Part shown: piece after piece, positions 47,274-54,663 of the stretch
How the letters are laid out: every line of letters begins with the position of its first letter
Position numbering within the stretch: the stretch's first letter is position 1
Assembly: GCF_000949475.1 (NCBI RefSeq)
Contig: NZ_JRHC01000003.1
Location: forward strand, 1-64,000
DNA: 64,000 bases
From: Draconibacterium sediminis
Lineage (GTDB): Bacteria; Bacteroidota; Bacteroidia; Bacteroidales; Prolixibacteraceae
Direction of reading: 5' to 3'
Program-made: the position numbers and the translations under genes
The notes under the pieces: model-generated
Database searches by the model: none
Told to the model about the DNA's origin: nothing
The model's input: only the letters and a program-made list of their open reading frames with translations

Positions 47274-48317
47274 ATGATTGAGAAAGTGATAACCTTAAAC
47301 AGAAAAACAAACGGTTGGTTACTTCCGTTATTTATGTTGCCCGTGTGGCTACTGTTATACCTGAACCTGCAAAACATAGCCGATGTAATTGTCGACAATG
47401 TGGCCGGGATGACAGCCGGAAAACATTTAACCGAAACCCTTCGCTTTTTTATTTACGAAGTACCAAAAGTAATGCTCCTGCTGGTGCTCATTATTTTTGG
47501 AGTGGGTATTATCCGTAGCTATTTTTCAACTGAAAAGACCCGGAAAATGCTTCAGGGAAAATCGCTGTTCACCGGAAATATTATGGCGGCATTATTGGGC
47601 ATTGTAACTCCTTTTTGTTCTTGTTCGGCCATTCCCTTATTTCTGGGGTTTGTTGAGGCCGGTATTCCCATTGGCGTTACCTTTTCGTTTTTAATTGCGG
47701 CACCAATGGTAAACGAGGTTGCACTTGTTTTGCTGGTTGGATTATTCGGTTGGAAAGTGGCACTTATTTATGTGGGCACCGGTTTAACGATTGCCATTCT
47801 TTCCGGCTGGTTGATCGGGAAACTTAAAATGGAAAAATATGTCGCCGAGTGGGTTTACAGCGTAAAAGCAAATGCCGAAGGTTTTGAAGAAAATAAACTT
47901 TCGTTTAGCGATCGTATTCAGAAAGGATTCGATTCCGTTCGCGAAATTGTTGGCAAAATCTGGATTTACATCATCATCGGTATTGCCGTTGGGGCAGGGG
48001 CACACGGTTATGTTCCCGAAGACTTTTTAGGCTCCTTGCTTGGTAAAGAAAACTGGTATGGTGTTCCGCTGGCTATCCTAATGGGCATTCCCATGTATTC
48101 CAACGCAGCCGGAATCATCCCAATTGTAAGTGTACTAATCGAAAAAGGAGTGTCGCTGGGCACGGCACTGGCATTTATGATGTCGGTAATTGCTTTGTCG
48201 CTCCCCGAAATAATCATCCTGAAAAAGGTATTAAAGTGGCAATTGATAGCTGCGTTTGTGGGTATTGTTGCTGCCGGAATTGTAATTGTAGGTTTCATTT
48301 TTAACTACGTGATGTAA
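47274..48317 (+). CDS. Permease of the ArsP / SO_0444 (DUF318) family
   Basis: A 347-residue membrane protein with about eight helices. The motif TPFCSCSAIPLFLGFVEAGI holds the Cys pair of ArsP-like permeases, followed by LIAAPMVNEVALVLL. Members export trivalent organoarsenicals (ArsP) or Cu/Zn (SO_0444 type). Control by the third ArsR operator and the ArsF/G-like neighbours favour organoarsenical export. Confidence 0.88.
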   Translation: MIEKVITLNRKTNGWLLPLFMLPVWLLLYLNLQNIADVIVDNVAGMTAGKHLTETLRFFIYEVPKVMLLLVLIIFGVGIIRSYFSTEKTRKMLQGKSLFTGNIMAALLGIVTPFCSCSAIPLFLGFVEAGIPIGVTFSFLIAAPMVNEVALVLLVGLFGWKVALIYVGTGLTIAILSGWLIGKLKMEKYVAEWVYSVKANAEGFEENKLSFSDRIQKGFDSVREIVGKIWIYIIIGIAVGAGAHGYVPEDFLGSLLGKENWYGVPLAILMGIPMYSNAAGIIPIVSVLIEKGVSLGTALAFMMSVIALSLPEIIILKKVLKWQLIAAFVGIVAAGIVIVGFIFNYVM

Positions 48318-48467
48318 TTGTTTCAACTAACGATAAAACTCAAAAAAATGAAACGAATATAAATTTTCTTCATTCTAAATTCGTTAATATGAATGATTAA
48401 AATTTATGTGAGTTCCTGAATGTATTCAAATTTTTTGAACATTCAGAAATCAAAAAATTTTAAACAG

Positions 48468-49241
48468 ATGAAAACAAAAACCATTGGATTTATTGGTGGC
48501 GGAAGGATCACTAAGATCTTTTTGCAGGCGTTTAAAAACAAAAAAGTTGTTTTTGAGAACGTTAAGGTATTCGACCCAAACAGCGAAACGCTGAGTGCAC
48601 TACAAAATTTATTCCCGGATATTGAAGTTGCCGATTCAGCACAAGCTGCTGCCAAACAACAATTGGTGGTTTTGGCTGTTCATCCGCCGGTAATGGCCGA
48701 AACACTTACAGCTATTAAAGATGTTGTAACAGAAGATACGCAGGTGCTTTCGCTGGCGCCAAAAGTTACTATCGAGAAAATTGCCGGAGCTTTGGGAACT
48801 TCAAAAGTTGTACGTATGATTCCTAATGCTACATCATTTATTAACAAAGGTTATAATCCGGTGGCTTTTCATCCTGAAACCGATAAAAAAGCCCAAAAAA
48901 GCTTTATGAAACTGGTGAAAGCTTTGGGTAAAAACTTTGAGGTGGAAGAAAATAAGCTGGAAGGATACGCTATTGTTTCAGCCATGTTGCCAACCTATTT
49001 CTGGTTTCAGTGGGAAGAGATGATAAGAGTTGCCGTTGCAACCGGTTTGGACGAGAAAGAAGCCAAGAAAGCAGTGGAAGCTACATTGAAAAAATCACAT
49101 GCCATTTTCTTTAAATCAGGAATGTCGGCCGATGAGGTAAAAGATCTGATTCCGGTAAAACCTATTGGCGATGCCGAAGAGCAGATTAAGGAAATTTACG
49201 AGACTAAACTGTTGGGCTTATACGAGAAAATTAAAGCTTAA
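48468..49241 (+). CDS. Pyrroline-5-carboxylate reductase-family protein
   Basis: 258 residues from the ATG at 48468 (an in-frame ATG at 48420 adds an unlikely leader). N-terminal NAD(P) motif IGFIGGGRITKIFLQAF; VVLAVHPPVM; C-terminal dimerisation helices GYAIVSAMLPTYFWFQWEEM. ProC makes proline from P5C, but the C-terminal region lacks the most conserved ProC GSGPAY-type segment, so a non-ProC reductase is possible. Located between the two arsenic clusters. Confidence 0.82.
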   Translation: MKTKTIGFIGGGRITKIFLQAFKNKKVVFENVKVFDPNSETLSALQNLFPDIEVADSAQAAAKQQLVVLAVHPPVMAETLTAIKDVVTEDTQVLSLAPKVTIEKIAGALGTSKVVRMIPNATSFINKGYNPVAFHPETDKKAQKSFMKLVKALGKNFEVEENKLEGYAIVSAMLPTYFWFQWEEMIRVAVATGLDEKEAKKAVEATLKKSHAIFFKSGMSADEVKDLIPVKPIGDAEEQIKEIYETKLLGLYEKIKA

Positions 49242-49263
49242 AAGACAAACCATAAAAAACGAT

Positions 49264-49296
49264 AGAGGGTAGTCGTTACGACTTACCCCCTTTCTA
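49264..49296. terminator. Probable terminator between convergent genes
   Basis: Stem GGGTAGTCGT pairing with ACGACT(T)ACCC (one bulged T), T-rich on both sides. The GTCGTTnCGAC core also occurs in the palindrome at 14436-14454. Confidence 0.55.
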
Positions 49297-49333
49297 TGAA
49301 CTCATTATGGTTACAAAAACAAAAACTCCGGTT

Positions 49334-49726
49334 TTAGTCAGCCATTCCTAAAACAATTTTCAGGTAAATGGCTTCAGGAAGTAAGGCCGATTTTATCATG
49401 TAAAAATCATCGCCCGGTAACAAAAAAGAGATATGATGAAATCGCACATAGCTATGGTAAAAAAAGCTGGCCCAGGCAAACTCCGGCGCACGGTCGGGGT
49501 AATCGGCCCGAACAAATTCTTCCAGTGTTAATGTCAGCCGGTCTCCCGCAATTTTTATGTTTCGTGGCGAACGAATGAACAGTGGCGATTGAAGCAAAAG
49601 TTCCAGGTTACTTTCAGGAGTATAGTTCACTTCTGCTATTTCTACCTGGTTTGAACTATCATTAATTTTTTCAAGGTGAATTGCCTGATTTTGTGCGTAT
49701 TCATTAATATTTAGTATTGTTCTCAT
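49334..49726 (-). CDS. Hypothetical protein
   Basis: A 130-residue soluble protein, no signal peptide. Mixed alpha/beta, with the aromatic segment FAWASFFYHSYVRFHHISFL. I do not recognise it. About 100 bases after another small hypothetical on the same strand; possible two-gene unit. Confidence 0.65.
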   Translation of the reverse strand: MRTILNINEYAQNQAIHLEKINDSSNQVEIAEVNYTPESNLELLLQSPLFIRSPRNIKIAGDRLTLTLEEFVRADYPDRAPEFAWASFFYHSYVRFHHISFLLPGDDFYMIKSALLPEAIYLKIVLGMAD

Positions 49727-49827
49727 GATCGTATTTTTTTAGTGTGAATATTTGTTTTTCATGAACGGAATATGAGTATAAACCTGCCAAACTATTTAGG
49801 GTTGGCACAGTGATACTCGGTTTTGCA

Positions 49828-50151
49828 TCACACTAAAGAAGGCGGTGGAAGGTCAATCAACCAGGCCGATAAAAGAAAGCAATATCCGGCCGGAAAAGAA
49901 GCATTAACATCTTTTCCCTTCTCAGAGAAATAAGCAAATAGCTCGTTCGATAATACTATTCCCGATCCCGGAGCAAAATATTCGGTATCCAAATCTTCCG
50001 AAATAAATTGATCGGGAGAGATGATAATCGTTTGATTGATCTGTTTTGCGCGGAAGCTTTCGCACGAAGTTGTCTGAGACGGAAGTACATCTTCTCTTAC
50101 GGAATTGATTCCGAGCAGCAAAAAACATACTATGTAAAAAATCCATCTCAT
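49828..50151 (-). CDS. Short secreted hypothetical protein
   Basis: A 107-residue protein with a probable signal peptide (RWIFYIVCFLLLGINS). Two or three cysteines follow (SCESFR, GYCFLL). No family recognised. Upstream of the 49334 gene. Confidence 0.6.
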   Translation of the reverse strand: MRWIFYIVCFLLLGINSVREDVLPSQTTSCESFRAKQINQTIIISPDQFISEDLDTEYFAPGSGIVLSNELFAYFSEKGKDVNASFPAGYCFLLSAWLIDLPPPSLV

Positions 50152-50328
50152 ACGGTTTCTTTTGTTTCCGGGATTAAAATTAGTGCTTTAAATATATTGT
50201 AGAACAGAATTAAAGTTAATTAGAGTTAACATTTCTTATTGAGTTGTTAATGATTCCGTTTGGGGTAGGCATTAAGAGTTCATTAACATATTTTTTAGAA
50301 CAATAGCCGGGTTTTGGCCGTTTAAAAT

Positions 50329-50336
50329 TACCTTTG
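50329..50336 (+). promoter_or_regulatory. -7 promoter box (TACCTTTG) for corA
   Basis: Exact TAnnTTTG; TTTG at 50313-50316 may be the upstream element. A transcript would begin near 50342, about 25 bases before the leader ORF. Confidence 0.6.
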
Positions 50337-50366
50337 CAAGCGAATTCAAAAAAAACAAAAATTAAT

Positions 50367-50417
50367 ATGGACGAAGGCCCGTATCATAGAGAATTAAAAA
50401 ATAACTCTTACCACTAG
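50367..50417 (+). CDS. Leader peptide upstream of corA (MDEGPYHRELKNNSYH)
   Basis: A 16-codon ORF, ATG 50367 to TAG 50415-50417, lying between the corA promoter and the corA ribosome-binding site. It opens with acidic residues and a proline (MDEGP), the composition reported to destabilise translating ribosomes at low Mg in E. coli MgtL (MDPEP). The last two sense codons and stop fall inside one arm of the antisequester hairpin, the geometry expected of a translated attenuator. No other function visible. Confidence 0.6.
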   Translation: MDEGPYHRELKNNSYH

Positions 50418-50456
50418 GAGCCACATAGCCTCCTGCTGGTAGAAAAACAGAGGAGG
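50409..50456 (+). promoter_or_regulatory. Mutually exclusive hairpins controlling the corA ribosome-binding site
   Basis: Hairpin A: 50409-50420 pairs with 50430-50441 (TACCA/TGGTA and GGAG/CTCC, one mismatch). Hairpin B: CCTCCT (50429-50434) pairs with AGGAGG (50451-50456), the perfect Shine-Dalgarno 7 bases before the corA ATG. A and B share 50430-50434 and cannot coexist. A ribosome on the leader stop codon would cover the 5' arm of A, freeing B to close the SD; early drop-off would let A form and open it. Confidence 0.65.
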
Positions 50457-50463
50457 TAATACC

Positions 50464-51396
50464 ATGTTGAAAATTTTCAAATCATTTGGCGGTTATATTG
50501 AAATTGATAAGCCGGAAAAAGGCTGCTGGATTAATGTAACAAAACCTACCGCCAACGAAATAGAATTACTTACTAAAGACTTTAATGTACCGCAGGATGT
50601 TGTACGCGATATTCTCGATGCCGACGAACGCTCGAGGATTGAGCACGACGATGACTGGTCGCTGATCATTATTCGTATTCCGGTGCCCGACAAGAATAAC
50701 GGCGTGCCGTATATTACGGTTCCGCTTGGCATTTTTATGACCGAAAGTTTTACCATAACACTTTGCCAGGTGGAAAACGAGGTGCTGCCCTACGATAGTC
50801 CGTCGCTGTACCGCGATAGTAAACGACAGGTTAAAGACGTGCTGAACTTTGCATTGAAACTGTTTCTGCGCACCGCCAATACTTACCTGAGTTACCTAAA
50901 ATACATTAACCAGCAAACGGCTATTATCGAGCAGGATCTGGAAAAATCGATCAGAAACAAGGAATTGAACCGACTGCTTAAAATGGAAAAGTGCCTGGTG
51001 TTTTTTATTACCTCGATAAAAGCCAATGAATTGGTTTTGGCCAAACTGAAAAATGGAAACCGGAAATCGATTAGCGAAATCAACGAAGATCTGCTTGAAG
51101 ATGCCATAATCGAAAACAAACAGGCGCTCGACATGGCACAGATCTACTCCGATATTCAAAGTGGAATGATGGATGCTTTTGCTTCGGTAATTTCGAATAA
51201 CCTGAATGTGGTGATGAAACAGTTGGCTTCCATCTCCATTATTTTAATGATTCCAACACTTGTGGCCAGTTTTTATGGCATGAATATTCCGAATAACCTG
51301 GAAACCAGTCGATGGGCATTTTTTCTTATCCTCGGTATTTCAATAATTCTGGCGCTAATCGGTATTCTTATTTTCCGAAAACGCGAATGGTTTTAA
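50464..51396 (+). CDS. corA: CorA-family magnesium/divalent-metal transporter
   Basis: A 310-residue CorA: acidic N-terminal cytoplasmic domain, long stalk helix (about 140-250), two C-terminal transmembrane helices with the filter motif YGMN in VASFYGMNIPNN, and basic C-terminus FRKREWF. It forms pentameric Mg2+ (or Co2+/Ni2+) channels. Start is fixed by a perfect AGGAGG ribosome-binding site. The leader suggests Mg-dependent translational control, unusual for a CorA gene. Confidence 0.95.
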   Translation: MLKIFKSFGGYIEIDKPEKGCWINVTKPTANEIELLTKDFNVPQDVVRDILDADERSRIEHDDDWSLIIIRIPVPDKNNGVPYITVPLGIFMTESFTITLCQVENEVLPYDSPSLYRDSKRQVKDVLNFALKLFLRTANTYLSYLKYINQQTAIIEQDLEKSIRNKELNRLLKMEKCLVFFITSIKANELVLAKLKNGNRKSISEINEDLLEDAIIENKQALDMAQIYSDIQSGMMDAFASVISNNLNVVMKQLASISIILMIPTLVASFYGMNIPNNLETSRWAFFLILGISIILALIGILIFRKREWF

Positions 51397-51420
51397 AACC
51401 AATATGCCTTTAGTAAATAA

Positions 51421-51566
51421 TTCTACTTTAACAGATTATCATTTCAATACAATTTTTTGGACTTTTACCCCGACCCTAAAGGGTGAAACCCAAAAAATCA
51501 ATCTGGTTCCCTTTAGGGTTTAGGGTAAAACAGATTGAATTTTTCAATGAATCTGTTAAAGTAGAA
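51421..51566. repeat. 146-nt nested inverted repeat after corA (family C / MITE-like)
   Basis: Perfect 17-bp terminal arms TTCTACTTTAACAGATT (51421-51437 and complement 51550-51566). Inside, TTTTACCC (51463-51470)/GGGTAAAA (51523-51530) and ACCCTAAAGGG (51473-51483)/CCCTTTAGGGT (51509-51519). It contains no ORF. No target-site duplication is evident. It could also end the corA transcript. Confidence 0.8.
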
Positions 51567-51607
51567 ATGATCAGTTTACCTTAATTTAACGATTTGTTTA
51601 GATGTAT

Positions 51608-51640
51608 ATATACGTCGGAAATCAATTTGACGTATATTTG
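51608..51640 (+). promoter_or_regulatory. Operator and -7 box for the second arsR
   Basis: Inverted repeat ATATACGTC (51608-51616)/GACGTATAT (51629-51637); the -7 box TATATTTG (51633-51640) overlaps the right half. Different sequence from the first arsR operators. Confidence 0.7.
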
Positions 51641-51657
51641 CGTCCAAATAAAAAACA

Positions 51658-51990
51658 ATGGTACAATCAAAAACAGATTTATTCGATGAGGAGCTAAAAA
51701 CGCAGGCCGCCTGGTTTAAGGTGTTGGCGCATCCGGCTCGTTTAAAAATTTTGCAATACCTGTCGGAAGCGAACAGTTGTATTACCGGCGATCTTTCGGA
51801 AGAATTACCATTGGGAAGAACCACCGTAAATCAGCACATTAAAGAGTTAAAGGAAGCAGGTTTAATTCAGGGGCACATTGAAGGTGTTCGAACAAAATAT
51901 TGTCTGAATCCGGAGAAAATTACTGAGGTAAAATCCATAATCGAACAATTTTTAAGTGGCCTGAATGTGGGCGATTATGAATGTAAATAA
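51658..51990 (+). CDS. arsR: ArsR-family repressor (second cluster)
   Basis: A 110-residue winged-helix ArsR protein similar to the first: KVLAHPARLKILQYLSE, recognition helix LPLGRTTVNQHIKELKEAG, wing IEGVRTKYCLN. Only one Cys (Cys41, in NSCITGDLSEELP) sits where the first repressor has a Cys pair; a further Cys lies at the C-terminus (ECK), so the metalloid site differs. Autoregulated from the upstream inverted repeat. First gene of the arsC-acr3 cluster. Confidence 0.92.
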   Translation: MVQSKTDLFDEELKTQAAWFKVLAHPARLKILQYLSEANSCITGDLSEELPLGRTTVNQHIKELKEAGLIQGHIEGVRTKYCLNPEKITEVKSIIEQFLSGLNVGDYECK

Positions 51991-52042
51991 GAGTGATATG
52001 TATAGCTTTATTTTACGAAAAATGAATAAACATCCTAAATCT

Positions 52043-52128
52043 CAATTCGTTTACCCTTATCCGCCAGCTGGCGGAAGCGAATTGATTGTCACTGCTCCCT
52101 TTAGGGAAGGGCTATTCAGTGATAATCA
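52043..52128. repeat. Two adjacent palindromic hairpins (family C) between arsR and arsC
   Basis: CAATTCG/CGAATTG (52043-52049, 52078-52084) enclose the perfect 16-bp palindrome TCCGCCAGCTGGCGGA (52060-52075). Next, TGATTGTCACTG/CAGTGATAATCA (52083-52094, 52117-52128) enclose TCCCTTTAGGGA (52096-52107). Similar pairing of a TCCG..CGGA palindrome with a CCCC..GGGG palindrome occurs at 61872-61907. Confidence 0.7.
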
Positions 52129-52188
52129 ATTTGCAGAATAGGAATTAGTTGAAATTCAATCATAGCAATAAAATAAATAATTTATAAA

Positions 52189-52614
52189 ATGAAAGTATTA
52201 ATTCTTTGTACAGGTAACAGTTGCCGCAGCCAAATGGCACACGGTTTTTTACAATCGTTTGACGAACGTATTCAGGTAGAATCAGGTGGTACCGAAGCAT
52301 CGGGTAAACTCAACCAAAAAGCCGTTAAAGCAATGGCCGAAATTGGTATCGATATCAGTGGGCATTCTTCTGATTCGGTTCAGAAATTTTTGAACGACCA
52401 ATGGGATTACGTAATTACCGTTTGTGGTGGTGCCAACGAAAATTGCCCCGCTTTTTTCGGTGAAGTGAAACACCGCCTGCACATTGGTTTCGACGATCCG
52501 TCGCACGCTACCGGCACCGATGAGTTTATCTGGAGCGAGTTTATCAGGGTACGCAACGAAATTAAAGAACGTTTTTACAAACTATACGAGGAAGAGATTA
52601 AACCTCAACTATAG
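52189..52614 (+). CDS. arsC: Arsenate reductase ArsC, LMW-phosphatase type
   Basis: A 141-residue low-molecular-weight-phosphatase-fold arsenate reductase. The P-loop is CTGNSCRS (nucleophile Cys7, Cys12, Arg13); CGGANENCPAFFG carries the downstream Cys residues of thioredoxin-coupled ArsC and HIGFDDPS the catalytic Asp. It reduces As(V) to As(III) for export by Acr3, 34 bases downstream. Confidence 0.93.
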   Translation: MKVLILCTGNSCRSQMAHGFLQSFDERIQVESGGTEASGKLNQKAVKAMAEIGIDISGHSSDSVQKFLNDQWDYVITVCGGANENCPAFFGEVKHRLHIGFDDPSHATGTDEFIWSEFIRVRNEIKERFYKLYEEEIKPQL

Positions 52615-52648
52615 GTTGACTTTTAAATAACGGTTATTGGAACAAAAA

Positions 52649-53680
52649 ATGGGCAACAACAAAAAGCAAATCGGTTTTTTTGAAAAATATCTGAGTCTGT
52701 GGGTGGCAATTTGTATTGCTGTGGGAATTGGCATCGGGCACTTTGCCGGAGACAGCATCCAGGTATTGAGCAACATGGAGATTTACAAGGTGAACATTCC
52801 GGTTGCTATTTTAATCTGGATGATGATTTATCCCATGATGCTTCAGGTTGATTTTTCGAGCATAAAAAACGTTGGGAAGCGCCCCAAAGGTTTAATTCTC
52901 ACCCTAGTTGTAAACTGGCTAATTAAACCTTTTACCATGGCATTTTTTGCCTGGATCTTTTTCTCAAAACTTTATTCGGCTTTTATTTCGCCTGAGCAGG
53001 CCGGAGAGTACATTGCCGGAGCAATTCTGTTGGGAGCCGCACCGTGTACAGCAATGGTATTTGTGTGGAGCTATTTAACCAACGGAGACCCGAACTACAC
53101 GCTGGTGCAGGTTTCGGTTAACGACCTGATTATTTTGGTGGCTTTTATCCCGATTGTGGGATTCCTTTTGGGAATAACAAATATCACCATTCCTTACGAC
53201 ACGCTGGTTGCCAGTATCGTTGTTTTTGTGGTAGTACCGCTTTTGGCGGGTTACATAACCCACAAACTGCTGGTGAAACAAAAAGGCGAAGATTGGTTTA
53301 AAAACGTTTTCCTTCCGAAGTTTAAACCGGTGTCGATAATTGCCTTATTGCTTACGCTGGTTTTGTTGTTCGCATTCCAAGGGGATATTATCGTTAAAAA
53401 TCCACTGATTATTGTGCTGGTTGCCATTCCGCTGGTTATTCAAACCTACTTTATCTTTTTTATTGCCTGGTTTGGCGGCCGGAAATTAAAATTGCCACAC
53501 GCCGTTTGTTCTCCGGCAGCGATGATCGGCGCCAGCAACTTTTTCGAGCTGGCAGTGGCCGTAGCAATTGCGTTGTTCGGCTTACAATCGCCGGCAGCAA
53601 TGGTTACTGTGGTAGGTGTTTTGGTCGAAGTGCCGGTAATGTTATCGCTGGTGCGACTGGCCAATAAATGGAAATACTAA
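52649..53680 (+). CDS. acr3: Arsenite efflux transporter Acr3
   Basis: 343 residues from ATG 52649 (a TTG 12 bases upstream is the alternative). Ten hydrophobic helices; Acr3 signatures are [13 protein letters not shown] (the conserved Cys in helix 4) and [17 protein letters not shown]. It extrudes As(OH)3 using the proton gradient. Follows arsC by 35 bases; terminator after. Confidence 0.95.
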
Positions 53681-53707
53681 TTCCTCTAAAATCGTTTTAA
53701 GATGAAG

Positions 53708-53755
53708 AACAGGTAACAGGTAGCTACAGCGCTAAATGTTACCTGTTTTTTGTTT
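53708..53755 (+). terminator. Terminator after acr3
   Basis: Perfect 11-bp stem AACAGGTAACA/TGTTACCTGTT with an 18-nt loop, then a T-run. Separates the nitroreductase from the arsenic transcript. Confidence 0.85.
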
Positions 53756-53801
53756 TAGGCCTTTCGCGAAAACGTATAAAGTGTGTTCTCAGGGCAACTG
53801 C

Positions 53802-53809
53802 TATCTTTG
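53802..53809 (+). promoter_or_regulatory. -7 promoter box (TATCTTTG) for the nitroreductase
   Basis: Exact TAnnTTTG, 24 bases before the ATG. Confidence 0.55.
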
Positions 53810-53832
53810 TACCACCAAAAAGAAAAACCAAA

Positions 53833-54663
53833 ATGATCGATTTTAAAATAGATAGGCAGAAATGCACCCAATGCGGTTTGTGTGCCGCCGATTGCCCAAC
53901 ACTGGTCATCAACCCAAAAAGCGAATACCCGGAAATTAAAGAAGGTAAAGAAGCACAGTGTATAAAATGTCAGCACTGTTTGGCTATCTGTCCAACGGCA
54001 GCGCTTTCAATCTGGGGGAAGAAGCCGGAAGACAGCATTTCGGTTAAAAAGAATGTTGTAGAACCGGATAAACTGGCGCAGTTAATCAAAACTCGTCGTT
54101 CAATTCGCAAGTTTAAAACTGAAGCGATAGCGCCGGAACTCATTCACGAATTGCTGGCAACGGCAGCTTATGCTCCAACAGGGCATAATAAAAATGAAGT
54201 GTTGTTTTCGGTAACCGAAACAAAAAGTGAGTTAAGCAAATTGCGCAATGCAGTTTATAACGCAATTAAAGAAGCCAATGCCGCAGGAAAAATTCCTGAA
54301 CGAATGGCGTTTTTAAACGATCTGCAGCGCTTGTGGGAAAGCAAACAAATCGACGTTCTTTTTCGCGATGCACCACATGTGCTAATTACTTCGGCTCCCA
54401 AAAATGTTGCGTCGCCCGATGCTGATTGTCATATTGCACTTAGCTATTTCGAGTTGCTTGCCAACAGCTATGAAATAGGAACTTTATGGAATGGTTTTAT
54501 AAAAATGGTAATGAAAGTTCTTGCTCCGGAATTGGGAAGCCAGATTGGTATTCCGGAAGACCATGAACTGGGCTATGTGTTGCTTTTCGGAAAACCGGCC
54601 GTAAAATATGCCCGCTCTGTTCAAAGCGAAGGACTGCATTTGAACCGCATTAAACTGGATTAA
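53833..54663 (+). CDS. Ferredoxin-nitroreductase fusion
   Basis: A 276-residue protein. Residues about 8-65 carry two [4Fe-4S] motifs (CTQCGLCAADCP; CIKCQHCLAICP), and the rest is a nitroreductase flavin fold (IKTRRSIRKFKTEAI; AAYAPTGHNKNEVLF). The cluster domain would feed electrons to the FMN to reduce nitro or related compounds. Separate promoter, but the location beside an ArsEFG-type region makes nitro-aromatic arsenicals a possible substrate (inference). Confidence 0.92.
   Translation: MIDFKIDRQKCTQCGLCAADCPTLVINPKSEYPEIKEGKEAQCIKCQHCLAICPTAALSIWGKKPEDSISVKKNVVEPDKLAQLIKTRRSIRKFKTEAIAPELIHELLATAAYAPTGHNKNEVLFSVTETKSELSKLRNAVYNAIKEANAAGKIPERMAFLNDLQRLWESKQIDVLFRDAPHVLITSAPKNVASPDADCHIALSYFELLANSYEIGTLWNGFIKMVMKVLAPELGSQIGIPEDHELGYVLLFGKPAVKYARSVQSEGLHLNRIKLD

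Follow-up and report, generated by a model that had tools for sequence, protein, structure and literature searches.

The short region upstream of corA in Draconibacterium sediminis raises the question whether it is merely an intergenic spacer or a regulatory leader and, if the latter, to which signal it responds. In the window, as we call the complete stretch of 64,000 nucleotides that was analysed (contig NZ_JRHC01000003.1), the first-pass annotation had proposed that a promoter box, a very short ORF, and two competing hairpins precede corA, and had guessed from this one locus that they respond to Mg2+. The comparative data turn this single-locus guess into a putative regulatory family. The region is likely to control Mg2+ uptake as a translational attenuator with a leader peptide, belonging to a Bacteroidota family that precedes CorA, MgtE, NRMT, and MgtA genes.

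The corA leader and its conservation

The promoter box at 50329, the ORF of 16 codons, and its stop at 50415 could be confirmed by direct reading, and the two hairpins sharing 50430-50434 by folds. The parts are as follows:

50329-50336, forward strand: -7 promoter box TACCTTTG, read from the sequence
50367-50417, forward strand: leader ORF of 16 codons, MDEGPYHRELKNNSYH, with ATG at 50367, stop codon TAG at 50415-50417, and a start without Shine-Dalgarno (SD) sequence
50409-50420, forward strand: arm 1, the 5' arm of hairpin A, which extends over the final codons of the leader and the stop (fold and covariation)
50428-50441, forward strand: arm 2, shared, pairing either with arm 1 (through 50430-50441) or with arm 3 (through 50428-50438; folds)
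50448-50457, forward strand: arm 3, the 3' arm of hairpin B, holding the SD sequence AGGAGG at 50451-50456 (fold)
50464-51396, forward strand: corA, 310 amino acids, CorA-like Mg2+ transporter (PF01544, E 2.3e-51)

Arms 1 and 2 form hairpin A (hairpin 1:2), and arms 2 and 3 form hairpin B (hairpin 2:3). Because the shared bases can only be used once, the two hairpins are mutually exclusive. Hairpin B buries a perfect SD sequence 7 nucleotides upstream of the corA ATG, exactly as had been described. The box TACCTTTG is presumably a -7 box of the TAnnTTTG type; in the window sequence, a -33 TTTG was not seen at the usual spacing from it. The leader peptide contains only one proline. In addition to the PF01544 domain, the corA product matches TIGR00383 with 1e-36, which is under the curated cut-off of that model, and the CorA proteins of the named relatives are 94% identical to it.

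The surroundings of corA are of a different kind. Arsenic-type genes flank it (47274-54663), with an ArsP_1 permease upstream (47274-48317) and an ArsR-type regulator downstream (51658), beyond which arsenate-reductase-like and Acr3-like proteins were recognised by reading only. Just 3' of corA, at 51421-51566, there is a perfect inverted repeat of 17 bp (TTCTACTTTAACAGATT) with arms 112 bases apart, inside which a second, CCCTAAAGGG-type repeat is visible by eye. This small unit looks like a mobile element or a terminator. Two close relatives match only one arm of the TTCTACTTTAACAGATT repeat exactly, at the same place.

Relatives of the window locus were collected through the similarity of their CorA proteins, without regard to the leader sequence, from 61 related genomes and a named genome collection. 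This resulted in 109 CorA loci, some of which represent the same genome from both sources. A truncated locus (L109) and the second CorA-like gene of the window genome (L002), which by eye has no such leader, had been left out beforehand. As the attenuator proposal had predicted, the ORF is conserved: the leader is present at 103 of the 108 assessable loci (duplicates included), corresponding to 91 distinct leaders. The six loci without it are L015, L030, L044, L076, L110, and L106, the last of which could not be assessed because it lies at a contig end with too little upstream sequence. At L015 (genome G023), about 60-100 bases upstream of corA, the DEGP codons have apparently been lost and the ORF now reads MIRIIIISVI before its stop, with the three arms kept. 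This locus is a natural variant and as such a test case for the function of the leader.

The conserved part of the peptide is its very beginning. Among the 91 distinct CorA leaders, position 2 is occupied by Asp (84) or Glu (7), position 3 mostly by Glu (74) or Asp (13), and position 5 by Pro in 85, with all four codons (CCG, CCT, CCC, CCA) in use. Tyr6 and His7 are found in 64 and 66 leaders, respectively, and the residues from position 8 onward are variable. The leaders comprise 16 (44), 12 (37), 15 (7), 8 (2), or 14 codons (1), and in most of the 12- and 16-codon forms a shift by one base selects either a stop just before arm 1 or a stop inside arm 1. The TAnnTTTG box is located 19-33 nucleotides upstream of the leader ATG in 85 of 90 CorA leaders compared to 2.4% of base-shuffled windows, and lies at most 60 nucleotides away in 35 of 41 further leaders. 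A loose motif, defined as an ORF of 7-25 codons with a start codon, two acidic residues among positions 2-4, and Pro within positions 4-6, precedes 97 of the 109 CorA loci but none of 49 MgtE loci sampled across the class.

Taking all sets together, at least two acidic residues are present at positions 2-4 in 136 of 137 distinct leaders and Pro at positions 4-6 in 132; a few leaders have no Pro (e.g. MDDYH, MDEGS). This set skips five of the 46 new matches, whose gene starts could not be placed (L230, L237, L242, L243, L245), and the gene starts of L222, L224, and L240 are possibly misplaced. Because the covariance model used for the scans described below itself rewards the bases encoding acidic residues and Pro, the unbiased statement about the ORF is the count based on CorA homology (103/108).

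The first codons are constrained in their bases as well. Asp2 is encoded by GAC in 121 of 123 leaders, compared to 39% GAC among the Asp codons of the corA bodies, and Glu3 by GAA in 100 of 102 leaders, compared to 73% GAA among the respective Glu codons. The usage of codons 2 and 3 is a nucleotide-level constraint beyond the reach of the peptide model, and a non-exhaustive look for a pairing partner that would explain it found none.

Genes preceded by the leader

The covariance model was trained on 77 CorA leaders only, and in the large scans the best ten candidates per genome were scored, so that all counts are lower bounds. At E ≤ 0.05, the scan of 393 genomes of the order gave at least 50 matches including the window. 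All 49 others precede Mg2+-transport genes, which belong to four unrelated families as classified by similarity to reference proteins. Among the matches listed, the targets are 19 CorA genes, 19 MgtE genes, ten genes of a PRC/MgtE_N/CBS protein, and one MgtA gene. The latter (L241) encodes a P-type Mg2+ ATPase whose best match in the PDB is MgtA (3.6e-145). One PRC/MgtE_N/CBS assignment (L237) is based on only 16 residues at a contig end, where the leader is identical to that of L238. The 19 CorA matches include training sequences or their close kin, whereas the other 30 do not. The link to Mg2+, which had been guessed from a single locus, is thus supported by the occurrence of the same element before four unrelated families of Mg2+ transporters.

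The class-wide scan of 395 genomes (E ≤ 0.01) resulted in at least five matches, the window and four others, and these four are all located upstream of genes for MgtE or the PRC/MgtE_N/CBS protein. Among the matches listed for the phylum-wide scan of 395 genomes there are, besides the window, one genome with two corA leaders (G780) and three weak matches (L252, L253, L254; E 0.014-0.039) with nothing Mg-related downstream, which we regard as noise. A search of the 395 phylum genomes with the exact pattern ATGGACGAAGGCCC gave eight matches, not more than the reversed control, and corA leaders are among them only in the window and in G780. A match from a smaller scan (L185, E 0.054) was rejected as false, since it sits in apparent coding sequence. 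Scans of 39-40 genomes revealed further MgtE, PRC/MgtE_N, and CorA leader loci. These and the other searches include a second group of CorA genes with the leader (L183, L186, L187), whose peptides begin with MDDSIP or MDDSNP, and a third one (L028, L029, L031) with MDDYH or MDDYPP. MgtE loci in general do not have the leader, which is absent from 30 top loci and 19 loci of the class sample including one of the two MgtE genes of the window genome. Thus, the leader is not found on every Mg2+ gene.

The PRC/MgtE_N/CBS gene has a characteristic neighbour. The gene following it is Nramp-like in all five loci inspected, two of which were confirmed with PF01566, and the one that was compared with the PDB has 7QIA as its best match (5.9e-112). 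7QIA is the Mg2+-transporting EleNRMT (PMC8806188). At L188, L189, L190, L191, and L199, the gene encoding PRC-barrel, MgtE_N, and CBS domains lies directly upstream of the NRMT-type Nramp gene. This arrangement suggests that the two proteins may act together as a Mg2+ importer, in which the first one, similar to the part of MgtE in the cytosol, would be the regulatory subunit.

Two competing hairpins and a buried Shine-Dalgarno sequence

Covariation of the arms in related leaders had been predicted as well, and it was found, less strongly for hairpin B. The alignment comprises 77 CorA leaders, a subset of the 91 distinct ones from which near-identical rows and three MDDY leaders were left out. 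In hairpin 1:2, double changes occur at all ten pairs, and 90.2% of the cells are paired compared to at most 53.7% when the arms are slid against each other. In hairpin 2:3, 83.6% of the cells are paired (again at most 53.7% slid), and its covariation score is reached by none of 500 shuffles. However, double changes occur at only six of its ten pairs, a count that 209 of 500 shuffles reach. Both hairpins covary, and the evidence for 2:3 is the weaker. For the 77 leaders, RNAalifold predicts hairpin 1:2 and, apart from it, just two pairs within the ORF. A second model, built from a mixed alignment, showed no consensus pairing and was set aside.

The same conclusion can be reached independently of alignment columns by comparing the pairing of each leader's own arms with that of arms from other species. 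Across 106 leaders, own arms pair better in both hairpins (0 of 2000 permutations, which ignore relatedness), and this is likewise the case (0 of 2000, relatedness again ignored) for a larger set of 132 leaders, from which two more had been left out because of a short middle segment. Within the 23 MgtE leaders, 0 (1:2) and 11 (2:3) of 2000 permutations reach the observed pairing, and within the 11 NRMT leaders 0 and 8, respectively, also ignoring relatedness. Arm 1 is positioned where a terminating ribosome could cover it: in 121 of 134 leaders, half or more of its paired bases do not extend past stop+12 (85/93 of the first and largest CorA group, CorA-1, 19/23 MgtE, 10/11 NRMT, 7/7 others), a result favoured by the search window for arm 1, which begins at stop-9. 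L209, L222, and L240 have no SD core and were left out of this set.

The leader of the window (138 nucleotides) folds with a minimum free energy of -31.3 kcal/mol compared to -17.8 ± 3.1 kcal/mol for shuffled sequences (z -4.35; 0 of 200 as good). This single-sequence structure contains hairpin B but not hairpin A, and in it the leader ORF also pairs to the start of corA and to nucleotides past its own stop. By eye, GGCCC of the leader could pair with GGGC after arm 1. The mean energies of the two hairpins in CorA-1 are nearly balanced (-12.5 kcal/mol for 1:2 and -13.6 kcal/mol for 2:3), but 1:2 is the more stable one in only 29 of 88 leaders, which counts against the attenuator reading. At equilibrium, hairpin A usually does not win against hairpin B, which softens the claim that A prevents B.

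What does a ribosome at the leader stop change? With a ribosome placed there, the predicted mean probability that the SD sequence is unpaired is 0.04 in the 88 CorA-1 leaders, compared to 0.45 in shuffles. Without it the probability is 0.22, so that the SD sequence is still mostly buried at equilibrium, and the switch probably needs co-transcriptional folding. In 29 of 88 CorA-1 leaders, compared to 29 of 352 shuffles, SD exposure rises by over 0.2 once the ribosome is removed, and in none of the 88 does it fall by that much. In the other groups, such a gain is seen in 3 of 17 leaders (CorA-3 1/3, MgtE 1/6, NRMT 1/5, CorA-2 0/3). L179 was left out here as it has no recognised SD sequence. That A prevents B would thus probably hold kinetically, with 1:2 forming first.

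The SD sequence itself is exceptionally strong. With an anti-SD tail that we assume to be the correct one (a search for the 16S 3' end with one pattern had no match), its pairing energy in front of corA is -13.6 kcal/mol, the top value of 54 ORFs in the window, whose median is -1.55 kcal/mol. An SD sequence at -7 kcal/mol or below precedes 77 of 88 CorA-1 genes, but none of 90 leader starts. In Bacteroidia, the anti-SD is reported to be hidden in the ribosome and SD sequences not to be recognised, strong SDs are favoured by bS21-free ribosomes, and rpsU is an exception with SDs below -13, an energy that was computed differently from that of corA (PMC9976891). This study does not mention corA. 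The conserved SD arm points to control at the level of translation rather than through a Rho-type termination, and the leader-bearing genes would be a testable set in which the SD is expected to count, even though the ribosomes of this class are reported to be SD-blind.

Mechanism, alternatives, and known Mg2+ leaders

The element consists of the promoter box, an SD-less mini-ORF of 8-20 codons beginning with M-[D/E]-[D/E]-x-P, whose stop coincides with arm 1, and further of arm 2 and the SD-carrying arm 3. If Mg2+ is sufficient, the ribosome translating the leader would get to the stop and cover arm 1, so that 2:3 would form, the SD sequence would be buried, and the transporter would be off. 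At low Mg2+, the N-terminus with its acidic residues and Pro would destabilise ribosomes (intrinsic ribosome destabilisation), and the stop would not be reached. Arm 1 would then be free, 1:2 would be the first hairpin to form during transcription, and the open SD sequence would allow the transporter to be made. We infer Mg2+ as the signal, ribosome drop-off as the event, and the sign of the regulation. A more far-reaching version, which we put forward only tentatively and think rather doubtful, is an independently evolved and widely used Mg2+ sensor of the Bacteroidota that relies on ribosomes becoming unstable on an M-D-[D/E]-x-P leader and acts as a gate for two kinds of ribosomes. SD-blind ribosomes would read the leader, and the transporter would be opened only via the exposed, exceptionally strong SD sequence, perhaps by bS21-free ribosomes. 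If such a gate existed, it would be among the few systems in Bacteroidota with SD pairing as the regulated step.

The same anatomy could also be read by an early stalling ribosome, an arrest peptide, instead of one that drops off, maybe in response to a different effector, for example polyamines or some other divalent metal; with arm 1 free again, 1:2 would form, and the SD sequence would be open. Tyr6-His7, which are kept in many CorA leaders, go beyond what drop-off alone should require. CorA also carries other divalent ions. NRMT carries Mn2+ too (PMC8806188). However, Mg2+ is the common substrate of the four target families, Tyr6-His7 are absent from many MgtE and NRMT leaders (e.g. MDDVPSC, MDEGPDL), and a combination of acidic residues and Pro at the very N-terminus is what has been described as destabilising (PMC11282234). 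Arrest is therefore unlikely in our view. A point against the attenuator with drop-off is that the window leader contains just one Pro, and that in MgtQ the only Pro codon was dispensable (PMC8092293).

Another alternative is that the leader does not sense Mg2+ but the overall capacity for translation or the supply of SD-competent ribosomes, for example those lacking bS21, with the transporter switched on when translation of the leader ceases or SD-blind ribosomes are lost. The SD-less leaders in front of genes with strong SDs would fit well to this, as would the hidden anti-SD and the preference of bS21-free ribosomes for strong SDs (PMC9976891), but it would need neither the conserved acidic residues and Pro nor the restriction of the 49 order-wide matches to Mg2+-transport genes, and is accordingly quite improbable. 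Even less probable is an RNA switch that binds Mg2+ directly and has an ORF only by accident. The logic of a riboswitch is suggested by two alternative hairpins that are balanced and precede Mg2+ transporters, and the nucleotide-level constraint at ATGGACGAA could be part of it. Against this, the start codon, the amino acids, and the stop position are all conserved, and RNAalifold recovers little beyond hairpin 1:2. Furthermore, Rfam has no match at the gathering threshold in the window and none up to E 1 for four leader-bearing loci, and its covariance models for Mg2+ riboswitches do not recognise the leader. Finally, AT-rich spacers often hold mini-ORFs and hairpins, but a functionless chance sequence is already refuted by the conservation, the covariation, and the association with particular genes, and its probability is practically negligible.

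We thus favour the leader-peptide attenuator, whose closest known counterparts are the Mg2+ leaders of enterobacteria. Like MgtL, CorL, and MgtQ, the window leader is a short ORF that precedes a gene for a Mg2+ transporter, and it has early acidic residues. The MgtL leader of mgtA in Escherichia coli and Salmonella has acidic residues and Pro right after the Met of a short ORF. Its destabilising motif is EPDP, and the start MDPEP that the first-pass annotation had quoted is wrong; ribosomes dropping off at low Mg2+ switch the transporter on, and completion of the leader switches it off (PMC11282234). MgtL differs in acting through Rho-dependent transcription termination, whereas the apparent target here is a buried SD sequence, and in its motif, compared to DEGP or DDVP here, in a different phylum and in front of four transporter families. 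The CorL leader is, like here, a short ORF upstream of corA in Salmonella and E. coli, whose translation is inverse to corA expression and which responds to intracellular Mg2+ (PMC11552253). As far as described in this source, it is Rho-dependent, starts with UUG in E. coli, and has no SD-sequestering switch of three arms. The sign predicted here (leader finished, off; aborted or unread, on) is that known for MgtL and CorL. The acidic residues of the tiny MgtQ ORF between mgtC and mgtB of Salmonella also destabilise ribosomes, and alternative stem-loops free the ribosome binding site of a Mg2+ transporter (PMC8092293). MgtQ is intergenic, however, and has four arms compared to the three of the leader upstream of the gene here, and it needs to be translated, as a start-codon mutant lowers mgtB (PMC8092293), whereas the anatomy here predicts the opposite effect of such a mutant.

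A literature search, mostly without subscription journals, found no title reporting a leader-peptide Mg2+ switch from Bacteroidota, and the present one may be the first. The leader suggests that ribosome fragility as a gauge for Mg2+ arose more than once. In erm-type attenuators and in tetQ of Bacteroides, the position of the leader ribosome determines whether 1:2 or 2:3 forms and whether the SD sequence is open or shut. The logic is the same as here, with antibiotics as signal and with other genes and peptides. The M-box (ykoK) riboswitch controls several families of Mg2+ transporter genes in Firmicutes, but as an RNA that binds the ion directly and without leader peptide. A single regulatory element for CorA, MgtE, NRMT, and MgtA in Bacteroidota would be comparable to it in scope.
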